Below are positions 27,087 to 39,610 of a stretch of 64,000 bases of DNA, piece after piece; position 1 is the first letter of the stretch, and the number at the start of each line of letters is the position of its first letter. The position numbers and the translations under genes are program-made. The stretch spans positions 124,001 through 188,000 of the forward strand of contig JAGCZH010000006.1 of the NCBI GenBank assembly GCA_017960475.1. Reading direction: 5' to 3'. Under the pieces are notes generated by a model. The model saw nothing but the letters and a program-made list of their open reading frames with translations. It had not been told where the DNA came from and ran no database searches. The DNA is from Bacteroidales bacterium (GTDB lineage: Bacteria; Bacteroidota; Bacteroidia; Bacteroidales; P3).

Positions 27087-28715
27087 TCAGAAGCCCATGC
27101 CGAACATCTGCCAGTAACGACTTTCGAGGTTGCGCCATGTATATGCCGTGTTATCATATACCTTGTATGTGTAGTCGTTGAGTATGCTTGATATCTTCTT
27201 GGATGGGTCGTAGTCCTCATTCTCTTTGTCCAGTTCCGCCTTTACGCTTTTTTCCAGTTCAGACAGCCCCTCCATTGCCCTGCGTTCGCATTCCAGCACA
27301 GTTTTCATGTGGACATCCTTTGTACGTTGCCAAGCCACAGTGGCAAGTTTGTTGGCTTTGCGATACTGCCACAGAACAGTGTTCTCGTCATATTTTTTCT
27401 GGCCACAGACGTCAAAAGCTTTAGGCAAACGGTCGTTTCCGCAGAAAATAGGTATGCGGGGACTCTGTCCAGGATTGTCCACAGCCACCCAGCAGATGCC
27501 GCCGACCTGGTCGGGCAACCAGGAGCGCAACTGTGCCACAAAGCTATATGAACACCAAGCCACGCTGACAGTGCGACGGAAATCAACAGTGCCGCTTTTC
27601 AGCAGGTTGAGGGTGCTCTGCATATTGCCACCCATCCAAGGATTAGCCAAAGGACTGATGACTGTGTCATGGCTTACGCTACCATCTTTTTGACGTTGAC
27701 TTACAACAGCTCTCACATTGCGGCACATATCCAAATCAGTGCCCTCATAGGTGGAGCGGAACAGTTCCATAACATCCGTCACATCGACAGACTGATCTGG
27801 TCTTACCGAGAAGGGAAGTTCATCCATATCAAGTGAGAGCCCCAACGATGGTGCCAAAGCGTTAAGGATAAAGAACTCCCGTTCTCTGAAGTTTTTACCA
27901 TTTGCATACGATGCATTGAACGCCTTCCAGAAAACAAACTCGTCCTTGCCGTCCCAGAGGTTGTATTTTCGAGCCACTTTCTCAATATTGTCCGAGCACA
28001 TGAAATAGTCAGGATTGTCGCGTTGCAATCTGCCGATACGAGGTATATTTGCACTGACGGCGACATGATAGTCGGGCACACGCTGAGCTGCCCACACACC
28101 GCCAATCTTATCTGGTCCTTCGCCAAGAATCTCCATCTGCCACACCTCTTCGCGGTCGGCGATGGTTATGCATTCTCCCCCGTCGCCATAGCCATATTGT
28201 TTTATCAGCTTACCTATCAGTTTTATGGCGTCACGGGCGTTATCACAGCGCATAAGGGCAACACGTTCAAGCTCTTCTATAGTGAACATACCTTTCTTGT
28301 TAACAAGAACGTCGGGGCCACCGAAAGTGGTTTCACCAATAGCGAGCTGCTTCTCGTTCATGCAAGGATAGGCGGAATTGAGGTAGGCGTAAGTGTGAGC
28401 GACCTGGGGTATTGTTCCAGCCACAGTGACACCAGTGGTGTCATCGCGATAAGCGGTATGCATGGTTCCTTTTCTAACAGTATATACTGCACCGGGCTTA
28501 TAGTCGCGGGCAGGTTCCATCGTCATCCATGTGCGGTAGCGACCGTCACAGGTGTGTGATGTGATCACAGAACCATCGGTCGAGGCTTTTTTACCAACCA
28601 TGATTGAGGTGCACGACTGTCCGTCGACAATCTGTGAGTTGTAATTGTCATAGTTCTGGGCACCGACAACGGCGACAAAGAACAACGCTGAGACAAATAA
28701 TATGATTCTTTTCAT
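27087..28715 (-). CDS. C69-family dipeptidase (PepD-like)
   Basis: Secreted or periplasmic N-terminal-nucleophile peptidase of 542 residues. A signal peptide (about residues 1-19, ending VVGAQ) is followed by a short propeptide and the putative nucleophile Cys35 in DGQSCTSIMVGKKASTDGSV, where processing would leave Cys at the new N-terminus. Other family segments: TSHTCDGRYRTWMTMEPA, AIGETTFGGPD and GDGGECITIADREEVWQME. Likely role is degrading peptides taken up from outside. It is preceded by an AACCCTTTTAACCC-type leader. Confidence 0.92.
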   Translation of the reverse strand: MKRIILFVSALFFVAVVGAQNYDNYNSQIVDGQSCTSIMVGKKASTDGSVITSHTCDGRYRTWMTMEPARDYKPGAVYTVRKGTMHTAYRDDTTGVTVAGTIPQVAHTYAYLNSAYPCMNEKQLAIGETTFGGPDVLVNKKGMFTIEELERVALMRCDNARDAIKLIGKLIKQYGYGDGGECITIADREEVWQMEILGEGPDKIGGVWAAQRVPDYHVAVSANIPRIGRLQRDNPDYFMCSDNIEKVARKYNLWDGKDEFVFWKAFNASYANGKNFREREFFILNALAPSLGLSLDMDELPFSVRPDQSVDVTDVMELFRSTYEGTDLDMCRNVRAVVSQRQKDGSVSHDTVISPLANPWMGGNMQSTLNLLKSGTVDFRRTVSVAWCSYSFVAQLRSWLPDQVGGICWVAVDNPGQSPRIPIFCGNDRLPKAFDVCGQKKYDENTVLWQYRKANKLATVAWQRTKDVHMKTVLECERRAMEGLSELEKSVKAELDKENEDYDPSKKISSILNDYTYKVYDNTAYTWRNLESRYWQMFGMGF

Positions 28716-30025: not shown

Positions 30026-32782
30026 TCAATTATTGCTCGACCCTTGCTTTTTCAACATACCCACACACTCCTTGAAATGGTCTCCTCTATATTCGAAATT
30101 TTTGTAATGATCATAACTAGAGGCTGCGGGAGACAGAAGACATATTTTGCCCGACGGAGTCTCTCTGGCAGCGAAAGCCACTGCATTATCCATGCTGTAG
30201 TCAGTTCCAAAATCCTTCACAATGTTACGTTCCACCGAAGTGCCATAACTATCAATAGCATCCATGATGGCTTTACCTGCTGTGCCAAAGAGGACAAGAT
30301 TGCACACTTTACGGCCATTGTTGTTGGTTTCAAGATACTCTGCCAAAGGTGAGTAGTCAATACCCCTGTCAAAGCCGCCAAGAATCAATGTATGCACATC
30401 CTTTAGCGCCTCGACAGCGGCTATAGTGGCCTGAGGTATAGTGGAGATTGAATCATCATAGTAGGTGACGCCACGAACTGTATCAACCTTCTCAAGTCGG
30501 TGTGACAGTGCTTTAAACGACATCAGAGAGTTCATAAAACCATCCTTGTCAATACCGAAACATTCTGACACTCTCCATGCGACATAAATGTTACAAAGAT
30601 TGTGCTCGCCTGCCAAGGGCAACTCATCACCAACCAAGAAAGTGGCTGCATGGGCATCCTCTTTGCCATAGCCTATGCTCTCTCCTGCCATTTGGTCTTT
30701 ATAACAATTCATTCTCCTGTCAAGATCCTTGTTGTCACGACAGAAAAACAATTTATCACCCTTACTCTGTTTAAGCGCCAGCTGCATTTTAGCGTCACAA
30801 TAGCCGTCATAGTCACGATAGTGATCCAGATGTTCCTCAAAAAAGTTCAAGATAACACCAATATGAGCCGACTTGTGGATTATCTCCAGTTGATGGCATG
30901 AAAGCTCAGCTACAACGATAGAGTTCTCATCGAGCCGATCGACAATGTCAAGCAAGGGAATACCGATATTGCCGGCAAGGATAACGTTTTTGTCTAAGTT
31001 ATCCGACAAGACTTTGTATATCAAACTTGTAGTAGTGCTCTTCCCTTTGGTTCCAGTCACGCCCACAGTGATGTCGCCGTAGACCTGAAGAAAAAGGTCA
31101 CATTGTGACGATATTGATTGCTTCTCGCACAATCCGTCGAAAATTGACAGGGGTATGCCTGGCGACTTCAATATCAAATCATATTTTTTTGTCTTCAGGG
31201 CCCTTTCTATCTCATTGTCATTGCGTGCGATATCGAAATAGCGTCCAGGGAATAACCTGCCCAGCATGGCGTTGGTACTTTTCCCTTCTCTTCCGTAACC
31301 AGCTATAAGAATCTTTTTGTCATCGAGCATCTCCGCCAGCTGTCGGCTTCGAAAAAAATCGGAAGTCTCTCCCCTCTTGCCACACACATCGTCAATGGTA
31401 TGTGACAACAACGACGCATCGTCGGGAGGCAGATTATTATCATCACAGAAAGAATCCAAGGGTGTTACCGAAACGACTGGAGTATAGTCTTTAAGAAGAG
31501 CTGGGCGATTCACACCATACCATCTGGTTATTGCCATAGAAAGAGCGCTGTTCACCTCATCCACAGTTCCGACACACTCGAAAGGTTTGGTCTCCTTATG
31601 ACCTGTAAGCTGGTCAAACTCAAGACGAAGAGAGTCATCATCGAGCATGTTCTTGCCAAAGATCGACACAAGACGTTCCGGCGCGATAAATGGCGACAAT
31701 ATGATAAATGCAAACAGGCATTTGGCGCAATGACCACACCATATATCTTGTTTGCTGCCCACATTACAGCTTTTGAAGACATCGAAATATTTCTCGTTTC
31801 GGGCAAAAAGCATCGCGATCTGCAATTCGCTCAATGGGCGCAGAAAACTATAGTAATCAATCTGTCGGGTGATATACGACTCCACATATCCTCGGAAATC
31901 ATTCTCAAACTCAATGCTTTTCGAGTATTGGTGATTCACCGAGGAACCCACCACTGTGCTTTCATTGGCGCTGTTCTCGTTAGATAAAGCTATGCGGCAA
32001 CGAGAGCGGGTCAACGCTGACGCCAAAAGGGTATAAAATGCCAGCATGGCACTGAAGGGAGTGTGCCCGTTCAAAGCGCCTTGGCTGTTTTCCTGCAACA
32101 TCCGCTGGTCCAGTTTGCGCTCTATGACAATCACATCGTCGAGAGAATACCCCGCCTTGGCCACACACTCGGTTGTAGCGCCACGAGGGTTCATTATCAG
32201 AGGCAGAGGTCTGCCGGCGGCTGACAACAGTTCCAAGGTAACCACCGAGTCTTTGCCACCGCCTATAGGTACAATATGGATACTATCAGAGTGTGATGTG
32301 AAAGCTTCATTGCAATGGCCGAAAAGTTCTTCGCTTATGGGCTCGACCTCACGCTCGCCCTCACATTCAATAGACATATAATCATCGATTGTGGCATCTA
32401 TACCATTAGTATAGAAAAACTCACCCAAACCATTAAAAAATAGTTTTTTCCAAAACAGAATCTGCTTATTATCCAAATGAAAAGGACGCACAATCACGAT
32501 AGGAGGACAATAGGTTTTCCAATAGCTTACAAGCTCAATCATTCCAATATGGAAAACCAGTGTGTCGAGGGTTTGTTTTGAAAGCTTTTCTGGATGGAGG
32601 AAACTGCGTGACGGAATGAAAGCCGAAGGCTGGAAACGAATCTCAGGTTGTTCTCCTCTCCCCTCTATTATGAAACAAAAACCGATGTGCAGCCCTTCAG
32701 GCTGCACATCGTAATGATAGCTGTCGTACACAAACCGCGCGAAGCGCTCTCTGTACTTGCAGTAATCTTGTTGTCGAGACAT
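30026..32782 (-). CDS. murD: MurL-MurD fusion: UDP-MurNAc-peptide glutamate epimerase and ligase
   Basis: 918-residue, two-part protein. Residues about 1-480 hold a PP-loop (VPIGGGKDSVV, 171-181) and a CxxCxxC motif (CGHCAKC, 349-355). This fits MurL, the ATP-using epimerase described in Xanthomonas that converts the terminal L-Glu of UDP-MurNAc-L-Ala-L-Glu to D-Glu. Residues about 489-918 are a full Mur ligase of MurD type: ILIAGYGREGKS, the ATP loop GVTGTKGKSTTT (574-585), NFFEEHLDHY and HRLEKV. The fusion suggests that one chain adds L-Glu to UDP-MurNAc-L-Ala and then inverts it, as the Xanthomonas MurD2/MurL pair does. The upstream coiled-coil lipoprotein gene ends three bases before this start. 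MurL identity is inferred from motif, size and partner. Confidence 0.78.
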   Translation of the reverse strand: MSRQQDYCKYRERFARFVYDSYHYDVQPEGLHIGFCFIIEGRGEQPEIRFQPSAFIPSRSFLHPEKLSKQTLDTLVFHIGMIELVSYWKTYCPPIVIVRPFHLDNKQILFWKKLFFNGLGEFFYTNGIDATIDDYMSIECEGEREVEPISEELFGHCNEAFTSHSDSIHIVPIGGGKDSVVTLELLSAAGRPLPLIMNPRGATTECVAKAGYSLDDVIVIERKLDQRMLQENSQGALNGHTPFSAMLAFYTLLASALTRSRCRIALSNENSANESTVVGSSVNHQYSKSIEFENDFRGYVESYITRQIDYYSFLRPLSELQIAMLFARNEKYFDVFKSCNVGSKQDIWCGHCAKCLFAFIILSPFIAPERLVSIFGKNMLDDDSLRLEFDQLTGHKETKPFECVGTVDEVNSALSMAITRWYGVNRPALLKDYTPVVSVTPLDSFCDDNNLPPDDASLLSHTIDDVCGKRGETSDFFRSRQLAEMLDDKKILIAGYGREGKSTNAMLGRLFPGRYFDIARNDNEIERALKTKKYDLILKSPGIPLSIFDGLCEKQSISSQCDLFLQVYGDITVGVTGTKGKSTTTSLIYKVLSDNLDKNVILAGNIGIPLLDIVDRLDENSIVVAELSCHQLEIIHKSAHIGVILNFFEEHLDHYRDYDGYCDAKMQLALKQSKGDKLFFCRDNKDLDRRMNCYKDQMAGESIGYGKEDAHAATFLVGDELPLAGEHNLCNIYVAWRVSECFGIDKDGFMNSLMSFKALSHRLEKVDTVRGVTYYDDSISTIPQATIAAVEALKDVHTLILGGFDRGIDYSPLAEYLETNNNGRKVCNLVLFGTAGKAIMDAIDSYGTSVERNIVKDFGTDYSMDNAVAFAARETPSGKICLLSPAASSYDHYKNFEYRGDHFKECVGMLKKQGSSNN

Positions 32783-36928: not shown

Positions 36929-39610
36929 ATGTTAACAGACTTTCTTATTCGTGCAAGCTACCCCAACTATTTCATGGTAAAGAAATATGCCGATATGGGG
37001 CGAGAGATTTTCAACCGCAATGTGGAAGACAAAGACAATGTGCTCAAAGGCAACAAACCTGGCACTGTTATATACACTCTCGACAACTCATCGGAGAAAC
37101 ACGAGTTCCCACCCCGTTGGTACGATATGTACTACCTCATGCGCCAACGCGGCGAGGCTCAGAGACATTACTTGGAGATGCTGCTCACTGAGCGTTTCGG
37201 CGAGGGAATGTGCGAGGAGAAAAAAAGTCCTGACTACCAACCACAGACCATCACAGAGCTGGAAGAGATACGCAATGCATTCCGCATTGAATGCCAAGAG
37301 TATGTCTCTTCCAACCCCCTCATCTCATCGGAATATATCATAACAACCCTCGACGAGAACGACTATACCGACGAGCAGATAAGCTACAAGGGACGTATGC
37401 TTCTGGAACTCACCCACGACTGCTATCCTGTGCCCGACTTCTGCATCCTCAGCGCCGAGGCTTTTCTCCATCCGGAAAAACTCGAGGAGCTCCTCGAGCA
37501 AGCCATCCACAACCTTGAGATAATGACGAGCTATAAGCTGGGCAGCAACCAGAACCCTCTGGTTTTCGCCATACGCTGCGCAATGCCGCAATATATCCCC
37601 GGCCTTATGCCTACATTGCTGAACATTGGTGTGACCCGCGAGGCATACCAAGGTCTGGGATGTCGTCGTGTAGGAACAGCAAACCGTGTATATCTCAGCA
37701 CTCTACACTCTATTTGCGAGATGCTGAGCATCGAGAACAAATACGAGCGCAACGACATCGAGCTCTCCAATGAAGAACAGCTGGCACGCATAGCAATGAT
37801 GGAGAAAGCCATTCTCGAGTCAGGACCCGACGGAGACCGTTTTCTTCACGACGCCCACTACCAAGCCCTCCGGCTGGTGGAATATGTGCGCGATTTCTAC
37901 ATCAACAATCAAGACCTCATCCTCACCTTCATGCAAGGCAAACGAGCTTACCCCTCTTTCATCCTGCAGCGCATGGTGTGGACAATAGGCAACGAGGAGT
38001 CCTACCCTGGAGTGCTTTACAGCCACCACAGCCGTACCGGCGTCGGCAAACAGGTTGAAAGCTACCGCAATATCTTTGGCGAGGAAATCATGACGGGCGA
38101 TGTCACCTCCATCGACATAGCCTATAAAGACCGAAGCGAGATCAAAAACGACTATCCCGCCGTGTTCCATTTCGACCCCCTCCTCGACTCTCTCGAACGA
38201 CGACACAAATCGCCTGTGACCATCGAGTTCGCCGTCGAGACACGCCCTCGCAAGATAAGCCTCTTCGCCGTTTTGCAACTCAACAAGTCGGAGATGACAG
38301 GTAGGGCGGCTCTGATATCCTCTATCGACCTCCTCAACCGAGGAATGATAGAGGAGCACGATGTCACCAACCTGATAAAGCCATACCATTTGCGCCAGAT
38401 TGTCAGCAACTCCATAGACGACCGCTCAATGGCTCATCTCGATTTTTTTGGCAAAGGTCTCAGCGTCCTGCCGCGCTCAGCAATCACCGCCACTCTCTGC
38501 TTCTCCGCCCAGCGGGCACAAGAGCTCAAAAAAGACGGTACAGCGGTCTGTTTATGCCAGTATCGTTTTGTGCCCGAGGACACTATCACTTTAGGCGAAC
38601 TCGATGCCATACTGAGCATGACACCAGCGGCGATACATGTGGTGACAGCCTGCCGTGGCTATGGCATTCCTGCCTTCATGGACCTCCAAAGCTATGGCAT
38701 AAAAATGGTCGGCAACAGCCTGGTCAATGCCGACGGTATGGTAATCAACGAGATGGACAAGATCACCATTTCCAGCAAACACCAGACAATCTACAAGGGG
38801 GTCGCCGCTTTCAAACCGGCACGTTTCACCAAATACCTCAACGGACAGCCTGTTAAGCTCGAAGAGAATGAGATAGAGTTCTTCAAAGAGATGAAAGAGG
38901 CCTACCAGCGTTACCAAAAAATCGTAACCTCCACCAATGCCTCCCTTATCTCTGATGTCAACAAACTCGCGCGCCTCATACGTTGCGATCTTCAAGACAA
39001 ACCAGAGACAGCACGAGGAATTGTAAACAACTGGTATAGTGACAATGCAAACCTTTATGTTAAACAAGTACTTGAAAGCAAGATGGGAGACCATCTGGAC
39101 CAGTCACGCGTCTTCAACCTTCTAAGCAACGACCGCAAAGTCGACTTCTTCCAACGTGTCTCCGAGGCCTGCATGAAAGAAGGTCTTAACGGTCTTAAGG
39201 CAGGTGCATTCATGCTGGGGCGTTTTGTGGCTCGTCCATTGCCGACATCGATATGGAACGCTTTAAGCGACCGCATTGTGGCTTTCTTGCTTAACGAATA
39301 TGTACTCTATGAGAAATACCTTCATGTCCTCGAGGAGGTGGGCGAGATACGTTTGACTCGAGCTCATTCAAAGATTGAGACAGAAGGCATTGACAATATG
39401 ACTATCAATAACTTCGACCTTTATAATTTCGTCACACTTCTCGACTCAGCTCATGACTGGAGCGATGTCACACACCAGCTTGAGAATATGGATCATCAGG
39501 ACAACACCCATCTTTTGGTAGAGAAACTCAGCCACCCTATCGACGAGATTTTCGACACAACAAAATCATGGGTTGCCTTCGAGATAGAAGAAAAGAGAAA
39601 GACAAAATAA
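36929..39610 (+). CDS. Divergent pyruvate-phosphate-dikinase relative lacking the PEP/pyruvate barrel
   Basis: 893-residue cytoplasmic protein. The middle aligns by eye with the ATP-binding and phospho-His parts of PPDK: NPLVFAIRCAMPQYIPGLMP with TLLNIG (dikinase VRSGA..MPGMMDTILNLG), TGVGKQVESYRNIFGEEIMT, MTGRAALISSIDLLNRGM, then TPAAIHVVTACRGYGIPAF with His570 at the place of the phosphorylated His in TSHAAVVARG. DGMVINEMDKITISS closes the swivelling domain. The C-terminal TIM barrel that binds PEP/pyruvate is missing; instead about 260 mostly helical residues of unknown type follow. N-terminal about 150 residues also unusual. The phosphate acceptor is therefore unknown. Confidence 0.75.
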   Translation: MLTDFLIRASYPNYFMVKKYADMGREIFNRNVEDKDNVLKGNKPGTVIYTLDNSSEKHEFPPRWYDMYYLMRQRGEAQRHYLEMLLTERFGEGMCEEKKSPDYQPQTITELEEIRNAFRIECQEYVSSNPLISSEYIITTLDENDYTDEQISYKGRMLLELTHDCYPVPDFCILSAEAFLHPEKLEELLEQAIHNLEIMTSYKLGSNQNPLVFAIRCAMPQYIPGLMPTLLNIGVTREAYQGLGCRRVGTANRVYLSTLHSICEMLSIENKYERNDIELSNEEQLARIAMMEKAILESGPDGDRFLHDAHYQALRLVEYVRDFYINNQDLILTFMQGKRAYPSFILQRMVWTIGNEESYPGVLYSHHSRTGVGKQVESYRNIFGEEIMTGDVTSIDIAYKDRSEIKNDYPAVFHFDPLLDSLERRHKSPVTIEFAVETRPRKISLFAVLQLNKSEMTGRAALISSIDLLNRGMIEEHDVTNLIKPYHLRQIVSNSIDDRSMAHLDFFGKGLSVLPRSAITATLCFSAQRAQELKKDGTAVCLCQYRFVPEDTITLGELDAILSMTPAAIHVVTACRGYGIPAFMDLQSYGIKMVGNSLVNADGMVINEMDKITISSKHQTIYKGVAAFKPARFTKYLNGQPVKLEENEIEFFKEMKEAYQRYQKIVTSTNASLISDVNKLARLIRCDLQDKPETARGIVNNWYSDNANLYVKQVLESKMGDHLDQSRVFNLLSNDRKVDFFQRVSEACMKEGLNGLKAGAFMLGRFVARPLPTSIWNALSDRIVAFLLNEYVLYEKYLHVLEEVGEIRLTRAHSKIETEGIDNMTINNFDLYNFVTLLDSAHDWSDVTHQLENMDHQDNTHLLVEKLSHPIDEIFDTTKSWVAFEIEEKRKTK

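Follow-up and report, generated by a model that had tools for sequence, protein, structure and literature searches.

A Bacteroidales protein joining MurL-like and MurD2-like halves as a probable source of cell-wall D-glutamate

The closest described system to the protein reported here is the epimerase-ligase pair MurL and MurD2 of Xanthomonas (XOO_1319/XOO_1320), which the available text of two reviews (PMC8788868, PMC5808125) lists in Gamma- and Alphaproteobacteria and in actinobacteria. According to the accessible part of the first of these, the selectivity of Xanthomonas MurD2 for L-Glu is set by Glu and Arg at the positions of residues 182 and 348 of Escherichia coli MurD, and E. coli MurD K319T accepts L-Glu (PMC8788868). 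Here we describe P0001, a protein encoded in a 64,000-nucleotide stretch of a Bacteroidales genome (the window; positions 124,001 to 188,000 of contig JAGCZH010000006.1, assembly GCA_017960475.1), which shares both domains with the Xanthomonas pair. We assign a probability of roughly 0.87 to the reading that P0001 is a bifunctional peptidoglycan-precursor enzyme that replaces both the glutamate racemase MurI and canonical MurD. It would add L-Glu to the cell-wall building block and then flip this residue to D-Glu, standing in for the two usual enzymes, and judging from its sequence it is most probably the source of D-Glu for the cell wall in this organism. Its ligase and epimerase activities are predicted from homology with Xanthomonas enzymes that have been assayed; adenylation as the mechanism of MurL is reportedly a hypothesis of its discoverers.

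A single frame with a MurL-like and a MurD2-like half

The first-pass annotation had described one 918-residue chain with three motifs. The frame proved exact and intact, on the minus strand (which that annotation did not give), with many stops in the plus-strand reading of the same interval, and GGGKDS, CGHCAKC and GVTGTKGKST occupy the residues given for them (Table 1). The fused frame is confirmed as real, neither chance nor a single assembly join, because 119 of the best 120 of 1494 protein matches are of fusion size (867-1260 aa; the remaining one is a 652-aa fragment) and many loci carry the fusion in one frame. The 119 include the window protein (as P0002), and the others are 44-83% identical to it. 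One-frame fusions occur at 13 of the best 30 same-genus loci and at 31 of the best 80 genome_contigs loci; because loci were chosen as top matches to P0001 or A1, both sets are enriched in fusions, and some genomes are in both.

On profile evidence, the N-terminal half is a MurL homologue outside the narrow NF041275 (MurL) equivalog. It matches this profile with an E of 4.5e-74 and 249.5 bits against a cut-off of 700 (Xanthomonadales), X. sacchari MurL scoring 836.5, and is 34% identical to the latter over 334 aligned residues (E 8e-56). Pfam returned nothing above cut-off for this half and NCBIfam only MurL, so the proposed assignment stands and no other PP-loop family matched by profile. GGGKDS and residues C349, C352, K354 and C355 are invariant in all 32 aligned fused sequences, and the X. 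sacchari MurL counterpart of CGHCAKC is CGVCPKC. The AlphaFold model gives the order strand (166-172), GGGKDS, helix (177-189); structure-search matches of this model cover residues 480-913 only. A comparison with QueC over 174 columns scored 31.0 against a maximum of 25.1 in 20 column shuffles, a weak match (E 0.0026 for one comparison), and this together with the motif suggests the label PP-loop for the MurL half.

The C-terminal half is a complete Mur ligase, as first annotated. Equivalents of K115, N138, E157, S159, H183, K198, R302 and D317, which we take to be the catalytic residues of Mur ligases, are all present, and the first six are kept in each of 111 MurL-linked MurDs. At the positions of E. 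coli D182, K319 and K348, P0001 has E650, I779 and R806, and the Asp182 plus Lys348 used to recognise a canonical MurD are both replaced. The same exchange runs through the 111 MurL-linked MurDs, where position 182 is Glu in 106 and Asp in five, position 319 Ile in 109 and Leu in two, and position 348 Arg in all; five canonical MurDs of the same order have Asp, Lys and Lys. In a MurD tree of 30 rows (23 picked from the 111, X. sacchari MurD2 and six canonical enzymes) the 24 MurL-linked sequences are split from the six canonical ones at 100/99, on a tree whose bootstrap is not settled and whose X. sacchari branch is long. The Glu and Arg specificity residues and the grouping with X. sacchari MurD2 strengthen the suggestion that L-Glu would be added first.

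Table 1. Coordinates of the fusion gene, its parts and associated genes (window positions unless a locus is named)
Feature	Position	Strand	Basis or remark
MurL-MurD2 fusion coding sequence, P0001, 918 aa	30026..32782	minus	intact ATG-to-stop frame
MurL half, residues 1-467 (profile match 69-417)	31382..32782	minus	NF041275; X. sacchari MurL similarity
GGGKDS, residues 174-179, PP-loop-like, probable ATP site	32246..32263	minus	alignment; QueC co-alignment
CGHCAKC, residues 349-355, possible metal-binding Cys motif	31718..31738	minus	alignment
Linker, about residues 425-481	31340..31510	minus	AlphaFold model (lowest confidence at residues 470-473); variable in alignment
MurD2 half, residues 482-913	30044..31339	minus	
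GVTGTKGKST, residues 574-583, ligase ATP P-loop	31034..31063	minus	alignment; contains the K115 equivalent
E650-H651, equivalent to E. coli D182-H183; E650 to X. oryzae MurD2 E197 (L-Glu selectivity)	30830..30835	minus	alignment; PMC8788868
I779, equivalent to E. coli K319	30446..30448	minus	alignment; PMC8788868
R806, equivalent to E. coli K348 and X. oryzae MurD2 R358 (L-Glu selectivity)	30365..30367	minus	alignment; PMC8788868
M20-family amidohydrolase, 22 bp downstream of the P0001 gene	28942..30003	minus	TIGR01891 over cut-off
C69-family dipeptidase-like gene, next after M20	27087..28715	minus	PF03577 over cut-off; NF033678 under cut-off
Stand-alone MurD C-terminal domain (mini-MurD), 181 aa, between mraY and ftsW	L041:9159-9704 (G000:C9)		

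Source of D-glutamate in the window genome and across the order

The window genome (2.45 Mb, 98% complete, 40 contigs), whose named close relatives are mostly Bacteroidales metagenome-assembled genomes from rumen and gut samples, including Candidatus Colimorpha, gave no match in a PF01177 search for murI and no D-amino-acid transaminase, its sole PF01063 aminotransferase being of the ilvE type. No Asp/Glu racemase family member was found in any of 59 same-genus genomes, this one included (completeness 64-100%). Of seven Mur-ligase-family genes present, only that of P0001 encodes a full-length MurD; the products of the rest are MurE, MurF, MurF-Alr, MurC and FolC, all over NCBIfam cut-offs, and one MurC/Mpl-type protein under both cut-offs. 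The first-pass annotation had asked whether a stand-alone murI or a second murD lay elsewhere, and the genome search found neither murI nor another full-length MurD. Strong P0001 matches (E < 1e-30) occur in 54 of the 59 genomes, G017 and G019 matching one half only and G012, G018, G035, G040 and G051 having none.

Across the order we surveyed 159 genomes at least 95% complete from 124 genera, counting as murI a TIGR00067 match over cut-off. murI is present in 103 and MurL in 49, both together in none and neither in seven; the Fisher value for this exclusion, 8e-34, overstates independence, the genomes being related. PF01177 matches in the MurL-positive genomes G084, G090 and G098 were considered as murI and rejected, NCBIfam placing them with Asp/cysteate-type racemases. 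Both domains, the specificity residues, the missing murI and the MurL/murI exclusion support the proposal that the fusion would provide cell-wall D-Glu on the nucleotide precursor.

Several observations weigh against this reading. Raw BLAST with the C-terminal half favours canonical MurD of the Bacteroidales (33%, E 5e-46) over X. sacchari MurD2 (27%, E 3e-31), and Arg at the K348 position occurs also in the D-Glu-using MurD of S. mutans, so it is not diagnostic alone (available text of PMC8788868). The MurL profile score is under the curated cut-off in all 49 MurL-positive order genomes, the N-terminal half would be equivalent to Xanthomonas MurL by homology only, and a sequence search of the Protein Data Bank with it gave no significant solved relative. 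G012 and G018 (92% and 96% complete) carry neither MurL nor any MurD over cut-off, for which assembly gaps would be the simplest reason, and in G014 murL and murD2 are on different contigs. Sub-cut-off TIGR00067 matches (25-44 bits, cut-off 147) occur in eight MurL-positive genomes (G084, G098, G143, G154, G168, G190, G197 and G215), of which only G084 and G098 were checked, both being of the Asp-racemase type. Finally, a full-length MurD-size frame (426-458 aa) is retained in 23 of the 47 MurL-positive order genomes with a listed frame, the window genome not among them (frames are listed for 150 of the 159 genomes, with eight unlisted matches and one genome without a match, and most were not read singly).

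The BLAST ranking, and the TIGR01087 profile that names the domain a D-Glu ligase, would suit an ordinary D-Glu-adding MurD next to a MurL half that does something else. D-Glu would then have some other origin that has gone unnoticed, such as a DapF of broad specificity, and a bifunctional DapF/glutamate racemase has been published for Chlamydia trachomatis (available text of PMC5885031). We regard this as very improbable: the MurL/murI exclusion argues against it, and the Glu, Ile and Arg residues and the grouping with X. sacchari MurD2 led us to reject a canonical D-Glu MurD even though raw BLAST opposes that choice. About equally improbable, in our judgement, is that the N-terminal half uses ATP to epimerise some other substrate that contains Glu, its link to MurD being historical. 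The modest identity to X. sacchari MurL and the sub-cut-off score leave room for such a substrate, but among 116 loci 44 are fused and 70 have separate genes on the same strand, mostly adjacent (a linkage that is partly by construction, both halves having served as query; the other two, L037 and L161, have no MurD in the locus), and none of the 49 MurL-positive order genomes has murI over cut-off.

Gene fusion, gene pairs and a stand-alone MurD C-terminal domain

The bifunctional enzyme would derive from a head-to-tail murL-murD2 gene pair that is still present in relatives. In most relatives read, murL lies immediately upstream of murD2, and 57 of the 70 separate same-strand pairs either overlap by at most 60 bases or are separated by at most 30. 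Within the order sample, four of the 49 MurL matches lie in a fusion-size frame (at least 885 aa), in G000 (the window genome), G151, and G129 and G206, the last two from another genus of the same family. A quick method gave a MurL tree with 116 rows, 107 of them distinct and 44 fused, on which the fused/separate label changes 12 times, and because at least nine of these changes are forced by starred branches, fusion or fission is, on this tree, recurrent. The advantage of the fusion may lie in handing over the L-Glu intermediate before it leaks to MurE. An error of annotation or assembly is hardly credible as the origin of the fusion. Overlaps of some 20 bases are common between the separate genes, and one base error could join or split the frames, but the MurL clade that contains the window protein (17 rows, 14 distinct; support of 98 in the Shimodaira-Hasegawa-like approximate likelihood ratio test, SH-aLRT) consists of fusions throughout and comes from several assemblies.

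The dcw cluster of the window genome, at L041, reads rsmH, ftsI, murE, mraY, mini-MurD, ftsW, murG, murC, ftsQ, ftsA, ftsZ; rsmH, murE, mraY, murG and murC are over NCBIfam cut-offs, ftsW is a best match under cut-off and the other names come from reading the sequence. The murD profile aligns with the mini-MurD at positions 289-437 only, and because the mini-MurD has no P-loop or central domain its sequence indicates that it cannot be a ligase. Its fold is confidently predicted to be that of the MurD C-terminal domain. It occurs in 56 of the 59 same-genus genomes (its own and 55 of 58 congeners, with misses in G026, G043 and G047), in frames of 177-237 aa. In the remaining 24 of the 47 MurL-positive order genomes the frame is of mini size, 179-267 aa (the longest, in G151, lies near a contig start and may be cut), and in all 103 MurL-negative genomes for which a frame is listed it is full-length (436 aa or more), in none of mini size. 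The start Met of the mini-MurDs aligns with an internal Met in five of five full-length sister MurDs. A search limited to 0.55-1.75 times the query length matched 148 protein clusters, 118 of the 120 listed being 177-181 aa; where named, they are called hypothetical protein or MurD.

These data point, with somewhat better than even odds in our estimate, to canonical MurD having often been trimmed in place to its C-terminal domain in Bacteroidales with MurL and MurD2, and then maintained by selection because it serves a second purpose, structural or regulatory, perhaps within the MraY/MurG/FtsW assembly; our best guess is that it plays a structural part in the complex that builds the cell wall. 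That the fragment is a decaying, functionless pseudogene is unlikely. The missing P-loop and central domain would fit decay, as would the absence of DSKATN and the changed SPACAS motif in all 30 aligned copies of the own genus (DSKATN and SPAC[AP]SFD are kept in the mini-MurDs of G063, G090 and G097). The near-constant size, the persistence of the short frame within the genus and the predicted fold argue against it, and so does the ratio of nonsynonymous to synonymous substitution rates (dN/dS), whose median of 0.12 and maximum of 0.29 indicate purifying selection, with synonymous sites near saturation (40 of 55 pairs from 11 of 37 collected mini-MurDs, 15 pairs being saturated).

Five MurL-positive genomes (G070, G071, G084, G085 and G098) carry a full-length canonical MurD with its catalytic residues beside mraY and/or ftsW, and murI was not found in them (the TIGR00067 survey excluded G071). 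The order member G073 (98% complete) shows neither MurL nor murI nor any MurD over cut-off; its mraY is followed by a divergent frame of 212 aa that resembles a mini-MurD and is outside the listed frames.

In the genus, murL-murD2 is repeatedly accompanied by an M20 amidohydrolase and a C69 dipeptidase, and we guess that they take part in cell-wall peptide recycling. The M20 hydrolase forms a third domain of MurL-MurD in the database proteins P0006 and P0031. Among four genomes examined as possible fusions, the frames of G030, G047 and G085 are separate and that of G041 is a MurD-M20 fusion (L089:3801-6503 is listed for M20 fused to MurD). The fusion at L129 was rejected as a Roseburia protein, the same protein being labelled Bacteroides sp. 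in a second source (P0243). Two Bacillota isolates, Lachnoclostridium sp. An118 and Mordavella massiliensis An582, carry murL-murD2 pairs (L137, L139), beyond the taxa named for MurL/MurD2 in the available text of the two reviews. Elsewhere in the window, the plus-strand frame 36929..39610 encodes 893 residues that match pyruvate, phosphate dikinase weakly (115.9 bits against a cut-off of 843); Pfam gave nothing for this protein at E 0.01.

Relation to known systems

The words fusion and fused occur in neither review's main text, as far as available, and Bacteroidales are not named there (PMC8788868, PMC5808125). Searches of the open-licence PubMed Central (PMC) literature, which does not cover subscription papers, brought up no paper on a MurL-MurD fusion, Bacteroidales MurL or a stand-alone MurD C-terminal domain, and the available part of PMC12502697 does not mention MurL. 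The pathway is thus known, and the fusion, its recurrence, its reach into Bacteroidales and the preserved MurD C-terminal domain appear new within the literature searched. The proposed reading predicts that about one in three of the order genomes sampled (49 of 159) makes cell-wall D-Glu on the nucleotide precursor and not as free D-Glu; if true, MurI inhibitors should miss MurL-positive Bacteroidales and inhibitors of MurL/MurD2 should hit them. The fusion would allow ligation and ATP-driven epimerisation to be studied in one polypeptide, and the retained C-terminal domain, which would have a job besides catalysis if our reading of the mini-MurD is true, offers a route to testing whether a Mur ligase also acts non-enzymatically in the division or elongation machinery. 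Roseburia intestinalis appears to lack murI (available text of PMC7478625), and MurL/MurD2 may be the same answer to that puzzle.

Among other fused peptidoglycan-precursor enzymes, neither MurB-MurC of Verrucomicrobium (available text of PMC4803751) nor MurF-Alr of the window genome joins an ATP-dependent epimerase to a ligase. SGGxDS and CGxCxxC of QueC align with GGGKDS and CGxCxKC of the MurL half, which is not itself a QueC member. Compared with E. coli MurD, D182, K319 and K348 are replaced in P0001 and the tree places it outside the canonical MurDs. It shares with X. sacchari the order murL then murD2 (overlapping there by 20 nt), and with X. sacchari MurD2 the Glu, Ile and Arg residues and DSIST in place of DSKAT. 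As in the Xanthomonas system, both domains are present and no murI was found (PMC8788868, PMC5808125, available text), but P0001 differs in being a single 918-aa chain, in its Bacteroidales host, in the M20 hydrolase downstream and in the reduced canonical murD that accompanies it in the dcw cluster.
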